Below, piece by piece: positions 23,001-64,000 of a stretch of DNA of 64,000 nucleotides. Both the position numbers and the translations under genes were made by a program. The notes under the pieces are model-generated. The model saw only the letters and a list, made by a program, of their open reading frames with translations, searched no databases and had not been told where the DNA came from. Source of the DNA: Brachionus manjavacas (lineage: Eukaryota; Rotifera; Eurotatoria; Ploima; Brachionidae). Position 1 is the first letter of the stretch, and the number at the start of each line of letters is the position of its first letter. The DNA is taken from assembly GCA_019054805.1 (NCBI GenBank), contig JAHQIY010000016.1, forward strand, positions 930,001-994,000, given 5' to 3'.

Positions 23001-26000
23001 CGACTTATTGATGTTATAGACTTTGTCATTGATCAAATTAGCCAATCCACCCAAAAACAAACTCATATTTTCACTTGTATAACCCTAAACACTACGTTTG
23101 AGATCTTGTTCTCTCTTTTCAAAAATCACAAGTTTCTACAGGTTCTTTAAAACAAAGTTGTTCGACGACTGATTGAAAATCGCCTACTACCGTATTCTTT
23201 GATTTTATTTTTAACTTAGATGCTGCTAAGTTACTAACATTATAGCTTTTGTATGATCTAAGCCTATTAATAATTGGTGAGTTCAAATTCATTTTACAAT
23301 TTCAAGTGTTTGCAATATATATTTGAAGTGAGAAAATCATAGTTCCTCAAGGCTCAGTAATTAGTCCTCTTTTATTTAGTATATACATTAATGACATCCC
23401 TAAAAGAAACAAAACAAATAATGAATACTCTCTGCTTTTTGCAGATGATCTAGTTACATTCTTCATTTATAACAAAAAAGGGAACCTAGAAAATAAGATC
23501 AATAAATACCTCAACGAATTAGAACAATGGCTTATTAAGTGGAAAATGAAGATATCAGTTGAAAAGTCGTGTTCATTAGTCTTTTCTAGGTACAAAAAAG
23601 ATTTGATTCTAAATTAAACTTTAATATACTGGTAGATGAAATTAAAGAGCGCTGCAATAAAAGGCTAAATATTATTAAGATATTGTCAAACAAAAAATGG
23701 GGTCTTAATCAGAACACACTAGGAAATCTATATAAATCTTTAGTCGGATCAATTTTAGACTATTCTTTTCCTTGCTTGAATTCATTTTCAGAAAATAATA
23801 TCAAAAAACTACAAGCAATTCAGAATACAGCAGTCAGATCTATTCTTAAGTTAAAATATGATACTCCCTCCAACATCGTACATCATGAGGCTTTTAATAA
23901 ACTAAAATTACTAACAGTCTCGAATCGGCTTTTTGAATTGAGTGAGAGATATGTTGGGGCAGGACTGAGTCATTCTATTCCATTGGTTGTAAGACTGGTG
24001 AAGGAATACAAAGAAGGTTTCGAATCAAGATTTATTGAATACCCAACTCCATTGTGTAATTGCTACCTTACTATTTCTTCTTTTTTTCCTGAAACTTGAA
24101 CTATTTAAACATGTGCCACATGTAACAATCTTTTCCAATTTATGTCTTTTCAACTTTCATTTTTTTAGCTTATTTACTCTATTTTGATTCTTTTTTTATC
24201 TAATTTTATTTACTTTAATTTTATTTTTATTTTATTTTTATATTTTATTTTTAACTTATTCTGAAGGAGCTTTAGCTCGGTACAGAAAACAAATAAATAA
24301 ATAAATAAATCATAAAAGAGAAATATTCTATGAAAAAAAAACTACGAGTTAATTTCTATGAGAATTTTTTTCTATAAGTTATATTCTATGAAAAAAAATA
24401 CTACGAGTTTAATTCTATGAGAATTTTTTTCTATGAAACATCATTCTATGATTTTTGTCTTCTATGAGTTTACATTCTATGAATATTGTTTTCTATGAGA
24501 TGTCACTTCATCGCAATCTATAATAAAGCTCAAATTATTTCATCATTTTATTAAAAAAAACAACAACATTTTTTACCAACGAGTATTTTCCAAAATTTGA
24601 AAAAGATAATAAGCTGTGATCTTTACAAGATAGAAGATAGAAGATAGATGTGAATTACATTTTCCTCATTCCAAAGATAGAATGAGGAAAATGAATGACC
24701 CGTACCCTTAGGCCCTCTTGTCTTCAGTGGTAATGAAACTTCGAATTCGTGTTCTAATCTTCGAGTGCTGATTATAATGAGCAATTATTTGTTTTCTTTT
24801 GAATATTTTTTCAATGAGATATTTTGAAAAAGCCTCAAAATTGAAGTATTTTGTAGAAAATTGAAAAATTACAATATTTAGTTTTGTGAAGTTCAGTACA
24901 GAAGAACAAAACAAAATTTAAAAAAATTGAATAACTATTTTTCTAATAGTTTAAAATAAATTCTGTGAATATAATTTAGTGCAAGTTGCATCAACTGACA
25001 ATGTCTGCTACTGATGTGCAAAATCTCTGCAAAATGCACTAGGCTCGATTATATTGAAATTCAATTCCTGCTAAACTCTGCAAATTTGACAGACCTTGAT
25101 AATTGATGCAACTTTAAATGTTGCACTATGTTGCATTTACAGAACTAAATTTAAACCTTTAGAAAAAAGTTATTCAATTTTTTAACATTTTATTCTATTC
25201 TTTTTATCATTTTGTACTGAATTTCACAAAACCGGAATTTTGATTTTTAAATTCCATTGATCAAAATAATATTTATTTACAATTTATTCAGATAATAAAT
25301 AGAGTCTAAGATTTAAAATAGAAGACTTTTGACTCTTTATTTATTTGTTTTCTGTACCCAGCTAGAGCTCCTTTAGATTGTTTTTAACAATAAAAAATTA
25401 AAATAAAGCTAAATGAGTTAAAATAAAATGAAAAAAAGATTAAAAAGACATATATTGAAAAAGAGTGCTACATGTTACACATGTTTACATAGTTATAGCA
25501 GGAGTAAAATAAGAAATGGTTAGGTAGCAATTAGACAATGGAGTCGCGTTTTCTATATATCTTGATTCGAAACTCGCTTTGTATTCTTCCACTAATTTGA
25601 CAATCAAGGAATAGAATGACTCAGTCCTGTCCTAACATATCTCTCACTCAACTCAAAAAGTCGATTGAGCGAAAGATAATCTTTAAATAAAATTTTCATA
25701 AAAAATTTTACTTTAAGAATTGCTTTTTTTCAAGAAAAGTAGAGTTGAAAAAAATGTTTATAGTCTTTATTTTAGCAGCTATTTTCTAATAGCCTATAAT
25801 TTGATATTTTGATAATTTTTTAATTAATTAGCGAATGGCTTATTCAAATTGATTGAAATTGCTATAATGTTTAATTTTATTTTTTTGCGTTTTTTTTTCA
25901 TTCAAAATTAAATGTGAATTTTATTAAATTAAATATAAGACATGATTATTAATCTTTTTTGATGAAAAATCAATCTCAGCTGATCTCTTTTGATAAATTG

Positions 26001-42654: not shown

Positions 42655-43626
42655 CTATAAAAAGGCAACTACACCAATATAGGCCGCTTCTATAGTAGAA
42701 GGTGCTACCGGATTTTGGTTATTGAGCATCTTAGCGTACTCATTACCCAGTCTCTGTAGATCAATATCTACCTGGTTCGGATCATTGAGTTTGCGCTTTA
42801 TCTGCTTCCAGAAGTCGTGTTTATTTAGACGGAATAATGCATCTATTTTTCTAAGACTTCGGTCTCTCTGAAATTTTAAATTGTATCTTTTCCGTCCACG
42901 GAAATTTCTCTTGGCTTCGGTGAAGTCTTTCTTGAGATTACTACCGAAATTTGAGCTTCTATATTCCAGGTTTTTTTGGGCCACTACGTTGTGCAGCTCT
43001 TGAATAGTCGAGTTCCACCAACTGTTGCGTTTGATTTTGCTGCCATTTTTCTTTCTCTTATAATTTAGTTTTTTGTTGTGGGTCTTCTTTGTCGCGTCTA
43101 TAAGTGCGTATGACAGCTCATTGATCATTTTGGTGACTAACGTTTTCAGTATACTTTTGTCCGTTTCTTGCTTTAGTTGTTTTAGTTCACAGGTAAGCTT
43201 ACGTAGGTTTTTATCTAGTTTTTGTTGGTAAACGGTTAGCTCATTTTGGTTGTGCCATTTTATTGATGGTTTTAACTTTATTTCCTCGGTACTATTAATT
43301 GTTATCCTCTCATTTTTAGAACAGTATTCTCTCATATTGGTGTTTCTTGACTGTGTTACACAGTGGTCAATCCAACTTTTGAGCTGTCTTCCATTTTTAT
43401 CTAAATGTAGGCAAGTGAAATCCACCGACTGACTTGTGTAGATGACTTTCATTGTTAGACTATTTCTGGTCAAGAAGATGGAAAGTTCTTTCGTACGACG
43501 ATTTATTTTCATTGGATCAGCGTTAAAGTCACCGATGATGACAAACTGTTTGCTATTTTTATCTTCCTGTATAATTTCGTGGAGTAAAAGTAATTCGCTG
43601 ATAATGTCGTCATCATTTTTCATAGT
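42655..43626 (-). pseudogene. LINE endonuclease C-terminal part and linker
   Basis: A 322-codon open frame begins near MKNDDDIISELLLLHEII and contains the endonuclease motif FVIIGDFNADP. It continues with SWIDHCV and a long Lys-rich linker (for example NSWWNSTIQELHNVV and KHDFWKQIKRKLN) typical of the region between endonuclease and reverse transcriptase. It ends at a stop at 42655. A one-base frame difference separates it from the part beyond the pogo-like insertion, so the reading frame was already damaged. Confidence 0.8.
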
Positions 43627-43627
43627 A

Positions 43628-44321
43628 CAGTCAATAACCGGTTATCCGGAATGCGATTCGAGCCTTTTTTTCAAAGTCTTCCGCATAATAAATTTTTCGG
43701 ATAACACGATTTGATAAGGAAAAGATGGGTAAACACAGTGTTAATTGATTTAAAGTGTTTATTTAGAACAAAGAAACAATTAAGTGAGTGCTTCGTCTAA
43801 TAGCGGATAGCTTGAAGTCTTAAATATGCTTCTGATCGCACTGTCTGGATTATCGTTTCTGAATTTGCTAATTTCTGTTGAACACTTGGCGATAATGTCG
43901 TAAATCGTAGTCAAGCCAACCATATAATCTAGCGAAAGTTTTTTTGGAAAGTACCCATTCTTGTTCTTAGTGATAATCTCCTCCCGCTGAGCAAAGTTAA
44001 GAACATCCTTCTTGCGTTTTGCAATCGTAGTATCAATAACTTTTTTACTAGCGTTCTTGTGAGGCTCAGGGACTTGATACATAGGTCTTGTCATTGTTAA
44101 TTCGAATAACAGAATGACTCACATCGTTTATGTTTGTATATTAAGGTTTAACAGGAAGTAATATGGAAGTAATGTTGTTCTAATAAGTTCAAATCCTAAA
44201 AAGAAGGAAGCGAAAAAGCCAAGTGAAAAATGTGAAAAATCAAAAAGTGCTGGTCCGAAAATTGATTCCGGATAATCGGTCATTTTGGGTAAAAAAATTA
44301 CGGATAATCGGTTATTGACTG
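43628..44321 (-). mobile_element. 694-bp pogo-like element with CENP-B DNA-binding remnant
   Basis: The left end CAGTCAATAACCGGTTATCC and the right end (reverse complement CAGTCAATAACCGATTATCC) form terminal inverted repeats. A TA flanks both sides (43626-43627 and 44322-44323), as in Tc1/mariner/pogo. A 104-codon minus-strand frame (43780-44094) keeps only the CENP-B-type helix-turn-helix region, and the catalytic DDE domain is absent. A second copy of the inner word ACCGATTATCCG lies inside the right end, giving a sub-terminal repeat. It looks like a non-autonomous derivative inserted into the LINE. Confidence 0.87.
43780..44094 (-). CDS. CENP-B/pogo-type DNA-binding domain, truncated transposase
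   Basis: The 104-residue protein has KRKKDVLNFAQREEIITKN and KKLSLDYMVGLTTIYDIIA, the homeodomain-like helix-turn-helix that opens CENP-B and Tigger/pogo transposases. It continues into the second DNA-binding part (FKTSSYPLLDEALT) and stops at 43780. The catalytic DDE part is missing. If expressed it could bind the element ends without cutting; that is inference. Confidence 0.78.
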   Translation of the reverse strand: MTRPMYQVPEPHKNASKKVIDTTIAKRKKDVLNFAQREEIITKNKNGYFPKKLSLDYMVGLTTIYDIIAKCSTEISKFRNDNPDSAIRSIFKTSSYPLLDEALT

Positions 44322-44409
44322 TACCATATTATACATGAGATAAACGTTTAATATAATCAGACATCCGATTTTCAATTTCCCGATACGATGACCATAGAAC
44401 TTGTGTGTA

Positions 44410-46723
44410 TGTTACCGTAATTTTGTAAAATACGTTATTTTGTAAAATTACTGAGTGACCAGTAAAAGTGTCAAATATATAAAATAAAATAAAGTTTTAA
44501 TGATTTCCTGACTTTTTATTTTTTTTAGTAAATAACTCAAAAGTTTTAGTAAATTACTTAAACATATTTTAATGTTTAGTAAATTAGTAAAATAATTTTA
44601 TTTGTTTTTACAAGATGAGTTTCCACCGTGACATCTTGAATTGCACAATAAACCACCTTTTTTGCAACTGCATCTATTAGTTAAACATTGACTTGTACAG
44701 TTACATTTTACCATACCTTGGCCTCCGCCAATAGATAGCTGACTAACTGCTTCACGAACACTTAAACTTTTATCTAACTTGACTTGAAAATCAACAACAC
44801 AATCCTTAATTAACTCAAAACAATTCCGGGCAAACAAGGTATTTAATACTCCAGCCCCAGAAGCAAGTTCATGAAGTGATTTGTCGTAATCTATATCGAC
44901 TATTCGACAAATCAAATTAGGAGCCTCAGTTAATCCCTTGTCAACTTCTGGAATTGGTAAAGTTACAAAATCACCAATATTCACCTCTGGAATATATTTT
45001 TTACTTCGTAACTTCATCAATTCCGCTTGTTTACCCTGATTTGTCCTGACGTTATCTCTAATACCTAACAATCTATTGGAATTTGATTCAATCTCTTCAA
45101 CTGTAGACTCAATAGGTTCAATAATCTCAATAGGTTCGATAGGTTCAATAGGTTCGATAGGTTCAATAGGTTCAAAAGGTTCAATCTCTAAATTATATTC
45201 TTTTGGATCGAATTTATCCGGGGTTGAATCAATATCATCTTCATCGTCAATGTCAATTTCTTTTTCGTCGTATTGATACCCAACGGCATCAAACAATTGT
45301 TTGGCCGTTTTTAGCTTTGACCACTCTTCAATAGGTATCGAAGTTGAAGTTAACCCTAAAGGAGTTTCAATTCCGAAAACTGCCTTATAAGGGGTACATT
45401 TTATACCTGAGTGGTAAGAATGGTTTTTTTTCAACTGAATAAATTTCAATCCCAAAGCCCACTTTTTAGACTTTTTCTCTCTCATCCAGGTAGCTAACAT
45501 TTTTTTGATGTCGGCATTAGCCCTCTCCACACTACCTTGAGATTGCGGATGACTTGCTCGGCCATGAACAAGTGACATTTCTGGTCACATTTGCTTAAAA
45601 GCTAATACGATTTGATTTCTAAACTCACGTCCATTATCAGATTGTAGCATAAAAGGAACTCCTAAAATTGAAAAAACGTCCAATAGAGCATGTGCTACTT
45701 CAATTGCTGTCTTAAACTTTAACGGTCGTAATAACACAAATTTTGTAAAATGATCCTGATAAACCATTAACCACTTGTATTCCCCGTCAGGTAGGGTCTG
45801 CATGTCTATTAAGTCCATCTGAGCTCTCGAGTTGAAATTTTCACTCGTTATTGGCTTAACTACAATTCCTGTAGTCTTGCTTCTTTTGCGATTTAAAATA
45901 CATTGTTCACACGTATTGATAAATGCTTAATTAATTATAATTAATTTTTGATATTTTTCCAGGTAAAAAGTTAACACAGTCAAAAAGAGAAAAAAAATTG
46001 AAAAAACCTGAAATCATGTCAACTGTAATATTCAGATGGTTTTTCCCACATGCGTTCAACATTACATCTCTAGCCTTATGTCCAACTTGATGGTGTATTC
46101 TATAAAATGTATCGAAAATATTTTCATATGGTACTAAAAATCGCATAGGTGAATCTGGATTTTTTTGCTTTACAATAATTTTTTTGGTTTCGCCAACGAC
46201 CAATATATCATATTTTTTCAATAAATAATATTCTCTATTTGTTTTAATAGTTGTTTTGCTTTTGGCATGTTCGATTTGCTTAATTAGTTCTTCGTACTCC
46301 TCCAGTTTCGTTACTGTCCTTGTTTTTTTCTTGTTTTTATTCGGGTTTTGTAGCTGCTCTTCGATTGATACAGTTTCAAAAACTGTATAAAATTTTTCTT
46401 TTTGTACTCGCTCTTGATCGACGTCTAACAGTTGAGCTTGGGCAACATCAGTTACCATCGAAACGATCAATAACAAAATCCATTAGCTTTTTTTTAAATT
46501 CATTTTTTTTTATTTATTTGAATCTTTTACTTATTTTTTTTAGAAAATTACTAAAAGCAATTGTAGTAAATTACTAAAGTTAAATCAGAGCTTAACAAAA
46601 TTACTATTTGATTAGTAACTTTATAAAATTACTAGTAAATTATTACAATGAAATTTATTTTACATATTTCCTAAGGCATTAGTAATTTTACAAAATAACG
46701 TATTTGACAATTTTACTGTAACA
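44410..46723 (-). mobile_element. 2314-bp Ginger-like DNA transposon
   Basis: Ends are TGTTACCGTAATTTTG...(left) and, as reverse complement of the right end, TGTTACAGTAAAATTG; the inverted repeats cover about 43 bp with few mismatches and share TACGTTATTTTGTAAAATT. The 4-bp TGTA is duplicated at 44406-44409 and 46724-46727. Ends beginning TGT with a 4-bp duplication and an integrase-like DDE protein match the Ginger group. Sub-terminal stretches repeat 'agtaaattac' words. It inserted into the LINE endonuclease gene on the same strand. One premature TGA interrupts the otherwise open integrase. Confidence 0.88.
44598..46458 (-). pseudogene. KRBA2/Ginger-type integrase-transposase with one premature stop
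   Basis: Exon 1 is 46458-46008, and an 82-bp intron (46007-45926, AAG acceptor) joins exon 2 in phase. The HHCC zinc-binding domain has HHQVGHKARDVML and TCEQC across the splice. The DDE core supplies D in QMDLIDMQ, the second D in LQSDNGREF, and E in HPQSQGSVERANADI. Between the second D and E, a TGA at 45585-45587 replaces the Trp expected in relatives (KQM*PEMSLVHGRA). A minisatellite encoding (PIE)n lies at ~45103-45190. The C-terminus is a Cys-rich CXC-type cluster (CNCTSQC, CSCKKGGLLC). The start ATG at 46458 was chosen over the longer frame opening with TTG. In active relatives this protein cuts and joins element ends. Confidence 0.85.
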
Positions 46724-49127: not shown

Positions 49128-49481
49128 AATGCATTCAAATATTAATATTTTTTAAACATATCTGATCAGATCAAAGAAACTTGTGACTTTTTCAAGTCCT
49201 GTTCATTCAAAATAAAACAAAAATTCTAAATAAAATACTTTTTATGAATTAATCGTTTGAAATTACTTTTCTTATTTTTGATAAGCCTGCAAACACTGGA
49301 AATATATTCTGTTGGTTCTTATACAGATTTGTGCAAGCATCTAGGAGCAAATTGGCAGAGAAGAATTATGAAAACCAGCCAAAAAATAGAGAACATAAAC
49401 GACACGACCATCAAGTGGGATAGCCTTAAAATTACGAAACTGGTCAGATATGTTTAAAAAATATTAATATTTGAATGCATT
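49128..49481. repeat. 42-bp inverted repeat pair
   Basis: The left arm AATGCATTCAAATATTAATA...TGATCAG (49128-49169) and right arm CTGGTCAGATATG...GAATGCATT (49440-49481) are reverse complements with one mismatch, 354 bp from end to end. No target duplication flanks them. The sequence is unrelated to the foldback family at 25 and 63 kb. Either a small transposon or the hairpin-forming ends of a transcript. Confidence 0.65.
49257..49457 (+). CDS. Possible small secreted peptide bounded by inverted repeats
   Basis: A 66-codon frame begins MKLLFLFLISLQTLEIYSVG, a clear signal-peptide pattern, and continues SYTDLCKHLGANWQRRIM, IENINDTTIKWDSLKI and a stop after TKLVRYV. Two 42-bp arms (49128-49169 and 49440-49481) flank it as inverted repeats, and the coding end overlaps the right arm. 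Only one Cys is seen in the mature part. No family recognised. It could be a real secreted peptide or a chance frame in a small element. Confidence 0.35.
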   Translation: MKLLFLFLISLQTLEIYSVGSYTDLCKHLGANWQRRIMKTSQKIENINDTTIKWDSLKITKLVRYV

Positions 49482-61753: not shown

Positions 61754-62302
61754 TTAAGCCGATTCGGAAAAATGGGCCACATCAGTTGCCGCATCGGTTA
61801 TGTTGTTCATTTTGTGTATAACGAACTCGATGGCCTGTCGACCGATTTGGGCGTTCGAGTTTATCTTCGATGCCATCATGTTCTCAAGATAGTCGATCAG
61901 AGGCGCGTTTTTGATAGTTATTTGGGCTTCTTGTTTGAGAAGTGTTTTGCTGCCATCTTCGGGATGAATCGAGTAGGTAAGTTTCTCGTCGACGTGAACA
62001 ATGTTATTAAAGGTTAAGTTGCGAGAGCGCAGCGAGAATTCTTTCTTTTCAAGATCGACTCTAGAATGCTCGCTCGCGTAACAAACTCGATTTCCGCCAA
62101 GGATTTTGTGTATCCAAGATGGCATTTGCCATTGGGTGGCCATCAATCTGTGTGACTTGAGAATTCCATTCTCCACCGTTCTGTCAATGACGTCAACGCC
62201 TATAACGCTGGGGTTGTACGGATTGGGGTATTTTTGCAGCGCCGCTTTGACAACATTCTCCCACTGATGGTTAAATACGTGCTCAGAAGACCAAATTTTC
62301 AT
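61754..62302 (-). CDS. PRELID3: PRELI domain protein, slowmo/PRELID3 type
   Basis: A single exon of 182 codons. It starts MKIWSSEHVFNHQWENVV, like human PRELID3B/SLMO2 (MKIWTSEHVF), so the ATG at 62300-62302 is preferred over an in-frame ATG 36 codons upstream. Family blocks are QKYPNPYNPSVIGVDVIDR, SHRLMATQWQMPSWI, VDEKLTYSIHPEDG and LKQEAQITIKNAPL, ending with GRQAIEFVIHKMN. In known members this domain carries phospholipids, mainly phosphatidylserine for PRELID3, across the mitochondrial intermembrane space with TRIAP1/Mdm35. Length is normal. Confidence 0.93.
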   Translation of the reverse strand: MKIWSSEHVFNHQWENVVKAALQKYPNPYNPSVIGVDVIDRTVENGILKSHRLMATQWQMPSWIHKILGGNRVCYASEHSRVDLEKKEFSLRSRNLTFNNIVHVDEKLTYSIHPEDGSKTLLKQEAQITIKNAPLIDYLENMMASKINSNAQIGRQAIEFVIHKMNNITDAATDVAHFSESA

Positions 62303-62963
62303 TTTTTTTTTCAAGCCAATTTCGATGTTTTTACTTGCTTTCAAATGAACTTTAAAATTCCTCTGAAGAAATCTAAAATAAAAATTTATCTCATCATTCT
62401 TATTATTCAATTTTAATTTTGAGTTTAAGGCGAAAACATTTTTTGTCGAATGCAGCGTTTTGCAACCATTCTAAATACCTTTTTTGTTTTGTTTTGATAT
62501 TTGTGTGATTTGTGCTTAATTCTAGAAAATGTATGCATTTAAATAAAATAATAATTTTGCATTTTTTTTTTATTTTTTTTTGCTAGCTTTACACAATTGT
62601 GTATGAACGCTTTTAAAATATTTATGTTCAATAGATATTCGTAGAAGACAATTTTTTTGGATTAATATTTCACAGGGTGTAAAAAATTTGAAATATTTCA
62701 ATCAAAAATCGATTTATTCTTCATCAAATGAACAAAAATTAAATTATATTAAATTAAATTTTAAAAAATTTAAGGCAAATTGAATTTTCATACAAATAAA
62801 AATAAAAATAATAATATATATATAACAAGGAGACACCTTAAAAGTCATAAGTCCTTTTATATTTATCAAAATAAAACGAAATTTATTTCTTGTACAAAGT
62901 CGTATTTTATTTCTTAGTTCATCAAAGTTGTTTGCTCTCCAGCCATTCTTATACACTTTCCTG
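62303..62963. other. Intergenic, with an unexplained open frame
   Basis: AT-rich DNA. A minus-strand frame at about 62955-62750 reads KNGWRANNFDELRNKIRLC, then runs into hydrophobic residues. It hints at a transposase tail, but no other part of such a protein is present. Confidence 0.35.
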
Positions 62964-62971
62964 TTTAAAAT

Positions 62972-63325
62972 GGCAATGTGAAATATTAGTACAAAAATTA
63001 CAGTACAAAAAGCAAAAACGCTATGATTTTTTTTCTAATTGTGTAAAAATGGTTCTGTAAACAGTACAATATTGTACAAATTTTTTAGAAACGAATACCA
63101 AGCTCTGCAAAAACTCTGAAATTTAATTGCAGATATTAATCATATATTTTTTGATGGTGTGCATTTTACAGAAAAATGCAGAGTTTTTGCAGAGCTTGGT
63201 ATTCGTTTCTAAAAAATTTGTACAATATTGTACTGTTTACAGAACCATTTTTACACAATTAGAAAAAAAATCATAGCGTTTTTGCTTTTTGTACTGTAAT
63301 TTTTGTACTAATATTTCACATTGCC
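62972..63325. mobile_element. 354-bp foldback element A with identical 147-bp arms
   Basis: Left arm 62972-63118 and right arm 63179-63325 are exact reverse complements over 147 bp, with a 60-nt loop (63119-63178). The ends are GGCAATGTG / CACATTGCC. Perfect 8-bp duplications TTTAAAAT lie at 62964-62971 and 63326-63333, which fits an 8-bp-duplicating superfamily such as hAT or P. No open frame. The identical arms suggest either a recent insertion or active homogenisation. Related copies are at 24880-25233 and 16364-16544. Confidence 0.9.
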
Positions 63326-63333
63326 TTTAAAAT

Positions 63334-64000
63334 GGACCAAAAATCTTCAATTGTTAGTACTTCTGGCACATTTTCAGGGTTTTCGCAGTTTTGCACAAAT
63401 TTGCATGTACTGTCGATATGAATGTCAATTTCTTATGGCTCATTTTGCTCAATTTGCTCAATTTACTCATTTTGCCTAATTCGTTGTTTTTGACTTTAAA
63501 AAACCATAGTTTAATCAAAAGAGAGACTTCGACAGACGTCTTTAGCTTTGGAAAGAAAGAACGAATAGTTAGATGGCGATTACACAACGGAGCCAGTATT
63601 GGCATGATATAATTTAGAATTAATCAATTTGATTTTGCAAAATTATCTGCTTCTTGTTCATGCCGATGAATGGCTAATAATCACAAGCAACAAAAAATTA
63701 CAGTTAACCTTAATTTGAGCACTAATTGACTTACCTGGGTCTCGCTAGAAACAAAGATAATTCGATAAATTTTTTGTCGGGCAAGTAATCCTAAAAAAAG
63801 TAATCCCAAAAATTTATCAATTAGTTTAACTATTATTTCAAGCTAAAAATTAATTTTTTATTTTTTTATGTTTAGTCTTTTTATTATGAATGAGCAAAGG
63901 CTTGGGACAGATTTACAAATAAGTAAAAAAATATATTTTCTAAAAAAAAGCAGGTGCAGCCAGCCGAGATCCGGATCACTGACCAGGTATAGGTAACAGC
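63334..64000. other. Intergenic, with LINE tail fragment
   Basis: At about 63515-63605 a minus-strand fragment reads LAPLCNRHLTIRSFFPKLKTSVE, matching the thumb-end peptide [15 protein letters not shown] of the LINE at 24 kb. The surrounding DNA is AT-rich. The last ~50 bp form a GC-richer patch of unknown nature, cut by the window edge. Confidence 0.5.

Follow-up and report, generated by a model that had tools for sequence, protein, structure and literature searches.

The window (the whole 64,000-nucleotide stretch of DNA that was analyzed) contains a non-autonomous, non-coding foldback MITE that belongs to a young, many-copy family. The family itself is new, and its kind, the foldback MITE, is known and ordinary. 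The element would be moved in trans by cut-and-paste, using an enzyme which, judging by linkage, would be supplied by a large transposon whose terminus is almost the same (best copy, C50:88317-101420). That transposon is predicted to encode a transposase-like protein of the P0001 family described below; the MITE would have retained the recognized ends and lost the gene, and one of its arms would at times be copied onto the other. We consider this whole account, in which a foldback MITE with arm copying is moved in trans by a P0001-family helper transposon, likely to be correct.

The window element and its family

The foldback occupies 354 bp (positions 62972-63325), starts with GGCAATGTGAAA, and finishes with TTTCACATTGCC; perfect inverted arms make up 294 of the 354 bp. 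Its parts are as follows.

62964..62971, no strand: left copy of the 8-bp target site duplication TTTAAAAT, exact
62972..63118, plus strand: left arm, 147 nt, opening GGCAATGTGAAATATTAGTAC
62972..62992, plus strand: terminal 21 nt, left end of the foldback
63119..63178, no strand: loop, 60 nt
63179..63325, minus strand: right arm, 147 nt, a perfect inverted copy of the left arm
63305..63325, minus strand: the same terminal 21 nt, right end of the foldback
63326..63333, no strand: right copy of the target site duplication TTTAAAAT, exact

The earlier note had described a mobile 354-bp foldback with perfect 147-nt arms, a 60-nt loop, and an exact 8-bp duplication; its geometry is as described, and its mobility is borne out by the copies, duplications, and nested insertion reported below. 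Folded as a DNA strand, the element reaches -172.4 kcal/mol, compared with a shuffle mean of -34.1 (z = -37), and none of 100 shuffles folds as well. At 98% complementarity the foldback arms are listed as 156 nt, and no longer single inverted repeat is listed for the window. Even when 5 mismatches are allowed, the window contains the terminal 21-mer at the two foldback ends alone. The surrounding DNA is AT-rich, and the element stands some 660 bp upstream of a minus-strand gene whose product matches PRELI (PF04707, E = 1.3e-50; window 61757-62302), and Rfam gave no match at the gathering score in window positions 62000-64000.

The window holds other repeats and frames as well. Positions 23923-25666 comprise 1,744 bp between long inverted repeats (59 nt at 93%, 109 nt at 81%) and are possibly another DNA transposon. 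At positions 49128-49481, two 42-nt inverted arms, 98% complementary and 270 nt apart, span 354 bp in total and have ends unrelated to the foldback. Positions 42655-45578 hold an endonuclease-like frame, with a weak Exo_endo_phos_2 match below the cut-off, and a second frame that we read as an integrase with a cysteine-rich tail; neither has a Pfam match above the cut-off.

A search of the genome (114.17 Mb, 61 contigs) found at least 40 near-full-length places, the window's included, each covering 325 to 370 of the 370 query bases at 91 to 100% identity. This count is a lower bound, the best 40 of 542 first-look candidates having been scored. Being near-palindromes, the copies match in both orientations. 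At up to 3 mismatches, the genome contains the terminal 32-mer 194 times, and the same sequence read backward, used as a control, does not occur. For closer study, we aligned 43 copies, taken from loci L039-L098 and the window, whose ends lie 300 to 365 bp apart; places without both ends at this spacing, being truncated or interrupted, were left out. An exact duplication of at least 8 bp flanks 39 of the 43, extending to a ninth shared base in 9 of these and to a tenth in none. L071 has a 7-bp duplication, and L046, L057, and L081 have none by the same test. The target core of the 43 copies is AT-rich with no fixed motif. Many dispersed copies, common ends, and a fixed-length target duplication are what characterize a MITE, and this family has all three.

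One locus, L072, demonstrates transposition directly. Here one foldback copy sits within another, each with its own duplication: the inner copy is flanked on both sides by CAATTTAT and the outer by AAAATATT. Once the inner copy is taken out together with one CAATTTAT, 353 bases remain, 350 of which are identical to the family consensus, and the consensus holds CAATTTAT once, at position 148, so the nested insertion has a restorable target. Perfectly identical arms could also arise as an inverted duplication or an assembly artefact that had never moved. However, the further copies, dispersed through the genome with the same ends, private flanks, and exact duplications, defeat this objection, as does the nested insertion; we count it as already refuted and give it a negligible chance of being right. 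By title and abstract opening, the literature search yielded no paper on the foldback family, which does not prove that none exists, and a text search for the string GGCAATGTGAAAT returned nothing on transposons, judged in the same way.

Copying between the arms

Copying from arm to arm can be quantified cleanly in the 43 copies. Compared with the consensus over 6,147 arm pairs, they carry 74 mirrored changes, 184 changes in one arm, and 4 positions at which both arms changed differently. If the arms mutated separately, 2.65 mirrored changes would be expected. When right arms were exchanged at random among copies, a procedure that preserves common variants, 2,000 trials averaged 10.6 mirrored changes and never exceeded 27. 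The 74 changes are not 74 events, since many mirrored variants are common to several copies and old events are thus recounted: they comprise 35 distinct variants, several of them present in multiple copies and the commonest mirrored in 11. By a stricter count, 8 of 74 variants private to one copy stand in both arms, in 8 copies. Separate mutation is too rare to account for the shared substitutions, and the statistics show that copying from one arm to the other takes place at times. We infer that the molecular step is gene conversion or hairpin-templated repair, and the copying is possibly coupled to transposition or to hairpin repair.

The arms might instead be identical simply because the family expanded in a young burst from several identical-armed sources, with no copying at individual loci. 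The median divergence of copies from the consensus (2.0%) fits such a burst, and only 8 of the 35 distinct mirrored variants are private, so inheritance from the sources can explain the other 27. The 8 private variants nevertheless stand in both arms, and the sources themselves would have had to acquire mirrored changes, which calls for arm-to-arm copying again. We therefore regard a burst without copying as unlikely and prefer copying between arms. The window copy fits either half of the suggestion that perfect arms reflect a recent insertion or gene conversion, and both halves are backed here: it carries two mirrored changes, at arm positions 42 and 54, and none confined to one arm; the change at position 54 is private to it. 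Perfect arms alone thus do not date the insertion, and arm identity is not to be read as insertion age.

A candidate helper transposon

The foldback ends led to a large candidate transposon whose enzyme piece matches no Pfam profile. The path to it runs through L055 (C3:1744500-1752000), where a transposase-like frame and a foldback end are some 1.4 kb apart. We rejected L055 itself as a helper: homologous DNA at six other places runs past the junction without the foldback, with the uninterrupted target GACTCATCT in three of the six (L102, L104, and L105) and one base different there in L100, L101, and L103. L055 is a piece of a foldback that went into a larger element. That element carries a related gene, which counts against the linkage evidence given below: insertion, too, can place a foldback end next to a gene of this kind.

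Elsewhere in the genome are sequences related to the L055 protein piece. One of these, at C9, is close to a lone end (33% over 105 residues), and a 130-residue piece from C9, P0001, was used as a query. It has 68 genome matches, the closest being C9:2330192, C50:95693, and C3:1689857 (100, 92, and 92%), with open frames of 325, 164, and 154 amino acids, respectively. Helper-type termini (GGCAATGTGAAATTTTAGTACATTTTTAAA) number 31 in the genome at up to 3 mismatches, with none in the control. Each of the three genes lies inside such a terminus, with the terminus 5' of the gene, over spans of 4,265 bp (C9), 7,760 bp (C50), and 7,525 bp (C3); on the outer side of the helper-type termini, no P0001 match occurs within 10 kb. 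The candidate helper ends at C9 and C50 equal the terminal 21 nt of the foldback with one change (nt 14, A to T), and the C3 end differs from these 21 nt at more positions.

With the three genes placed at random, 0.008 pairs would be expected for the 31 ends and 0.045 for all 171 listed ends; the group had been seen in the lists before the linkage was counted, so these chance figures do not come from a planned test. Across the 171 listed ends, there is one further inside pair, the L055 insertion, and about 1.0 would be expected over all 68 matches. The support from linkage hence rests on the three linked genes being the three closest relatives. No listed end falls within 10 kb of a fourth relative (C26:557578, 83%, interrupted by stops), and no P0001-family gene falls that close to 28 of the 31 termini. 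Outside the ends, the C50 flank is identical to those of C9 and C3 at 2 and 3 of 18 positions, respectively. Between C9 and C3, 9 of 18 flank positions are identical, as are 6 of 8 beside the end, so these two copies may not be independent insertions. Three helper-type ends about 9.2 kb apart on one strand (G000:C4:2101381-2119817) suggest tandem copies of a larger unit.

The C50 copy allowed a planned prediction: if GGCAATG at C50:88317 is a true end with the duplication TGTGCTAA, the far end should read TTTCACATTGCC followed by TGTGCTAA. This sequence has 14 places in the genome at up to 3 mismatches, 2 of them with 1 mismatch, and the backward control has 42 at up to 3, which makes the 3-mismatch matches uninformative. 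The match at C50:101409-101428 carries weight through its position (5.3 kb beyond the gene match), its strand (the predicted one), and its single mismatch in 20. The candidate element so bounded, C50:88317-101420, would measure 13,104 bp, with a duplication matching at 7 of 8 positions. Its right end does not match the 30-nt helper-type terminus within 3 mismatches; given this absence from the 30-mer matches, good agreement between the two ends is confined to the tip. The gene in this copy may be broken. Linkage and the predicted far end suggest a larger relative with the foldback's ends and a putative transposase, which would act as the helper. The mobilizing transposase, which the earlier note had called not obvious, now has a candidate on linkage evidence.

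P0001 has no Pfam match at E values up to 10, and we take the motifs of its family to be those of a DDE transposase. Pieces of the L055 protein match Pfam only below curated cut-offs, the nearest being a short otubain/OTU motif (22.8 bits against a cut-off of 24.3), and the L055 protein piece has no relative among viral contigs or in the PDB. On sequence grounds, the candidate helper protein is transposase-like and fits no Pfam family. A fuller version of the helper can be offered only tentatively: an approximately 13-kb DNA transposon with 8-bp duplications and GGCAATGTGAAA ends, of a superfamily without a curated profile, whose MITE arms are kept identical by arm-to-arm copying and whose related proteins occur in apparent 16- to 22-kb elements with an OTU motif.

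Those apparent very large elements comprise L055 and its homologues at C26:390751-412347, C8:687636-706043, and C13:1731911-1748386. Inverted arrays of a 79-bp tandem repeat bound them, about 16 to 22 kb apart, and at times the second array is only 72 to 78% alike. They carry a transposase-like gene related to P0001, and L055 also has the OTU-protease motif. One relative has a 764-amino-acid open frame at C3:1167066.

Two further loci with large inserts were examined. L039:1101-6789 (5,689 bp) has foldback ends and the 8-bp duplication GGATCCGT on both sides, but was rejected as an autonomous copy and is read as a foldback copy with foreign DNA. It holds a CENP-B_N frame (Tigger-like) and further frames that we presume to be LINE; positions 53-134 of its left arm were not found. 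The unit may be a composite that moved as a whole, or later insertions may have filled it. L054 is a foldback copy with an inserted element that bears two 252-bp direct repeats and has frames that we take to be gypsy-like.

Comparison with known systems

The earlier note had called the 8-bp duplication a hAT/P-type feature. Assignment of the family to the hAT superfamily would draw on that duplication and on the presence of at least 150 hAT dimerisation-domain matches in the genome (the best 150 of 397 candidates were scored). Yet the foldback ends do not begin with CAG, a hallmark of hAT ends. Among these 150 of 397 scored candidates, none of the 31 helper-type ends and one of 35 lone ends has a hAT match inside within 10 kb. 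Matches outside number one per set, and the inside expectation by chance is 0.87 over both sets. With hAT genes linked to foldback ends at no more than the chance level, the hAT part of the earlier label is unsupported, and we consider a hAT origin highly improbable. Duplications of 8 bp are common to other superfamilies, including Merlin (PMC8101967).

Merlin elements resemble the window family more closely. They have TIRs of 24 to 462 bp beginning with GG and 8- or 9-bp duplications; the foldback agrees in its ends, TIR length, and duplication (PMC8101967), and the genome has 60 matches to PF12762, so that its Merlin (IS1595-type) transposases might move a Merlin MITE. Against this, no DDE_Tnp_IS1595 transposase is bounded by foldback ends among 70 lone ends, those with no partner within 1.2 kb in an incomplete list (within 10 kb, 0 inside and 1 outside). 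Over all 171 listed ends, pairs number 2 inside and 3 outside; the 2 inside ones are short foldback copies whose two ends both lie close to a Merlin gene. Merlin genes are thus unlinked beyond chance, the gene piece that is linked to foldback ends is missed by every Pfam model, and a Merlin origin appears improbable. We continue to favor the P0001-family helper.

Zisupton/KDZ elements likewise share an 8-bp duplication (PMC12730594), but the genome has only 2 KDZ matches, and no KDZ transposase domain is found at C9:2330192, C50:95693, or C3:1689857. Foldback-type MITEs in general are, like the window family, short, non-coding, and mostly inverted repeat, with common ends, a fixed-length duplication, and tens of copies or more; the window family differs in that its ends and candidate helper tie to no named superfamily. 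Galileo, of the P superfamily in Drosophila, has 7-bp duplications, compared with 8 bp here (PMC3573991). As described in the same source, it nonetheless offers a parallel for the arms: they are long and inverted, those of one copy are 98 to 100% identical, and repair using another arm has been proposed.
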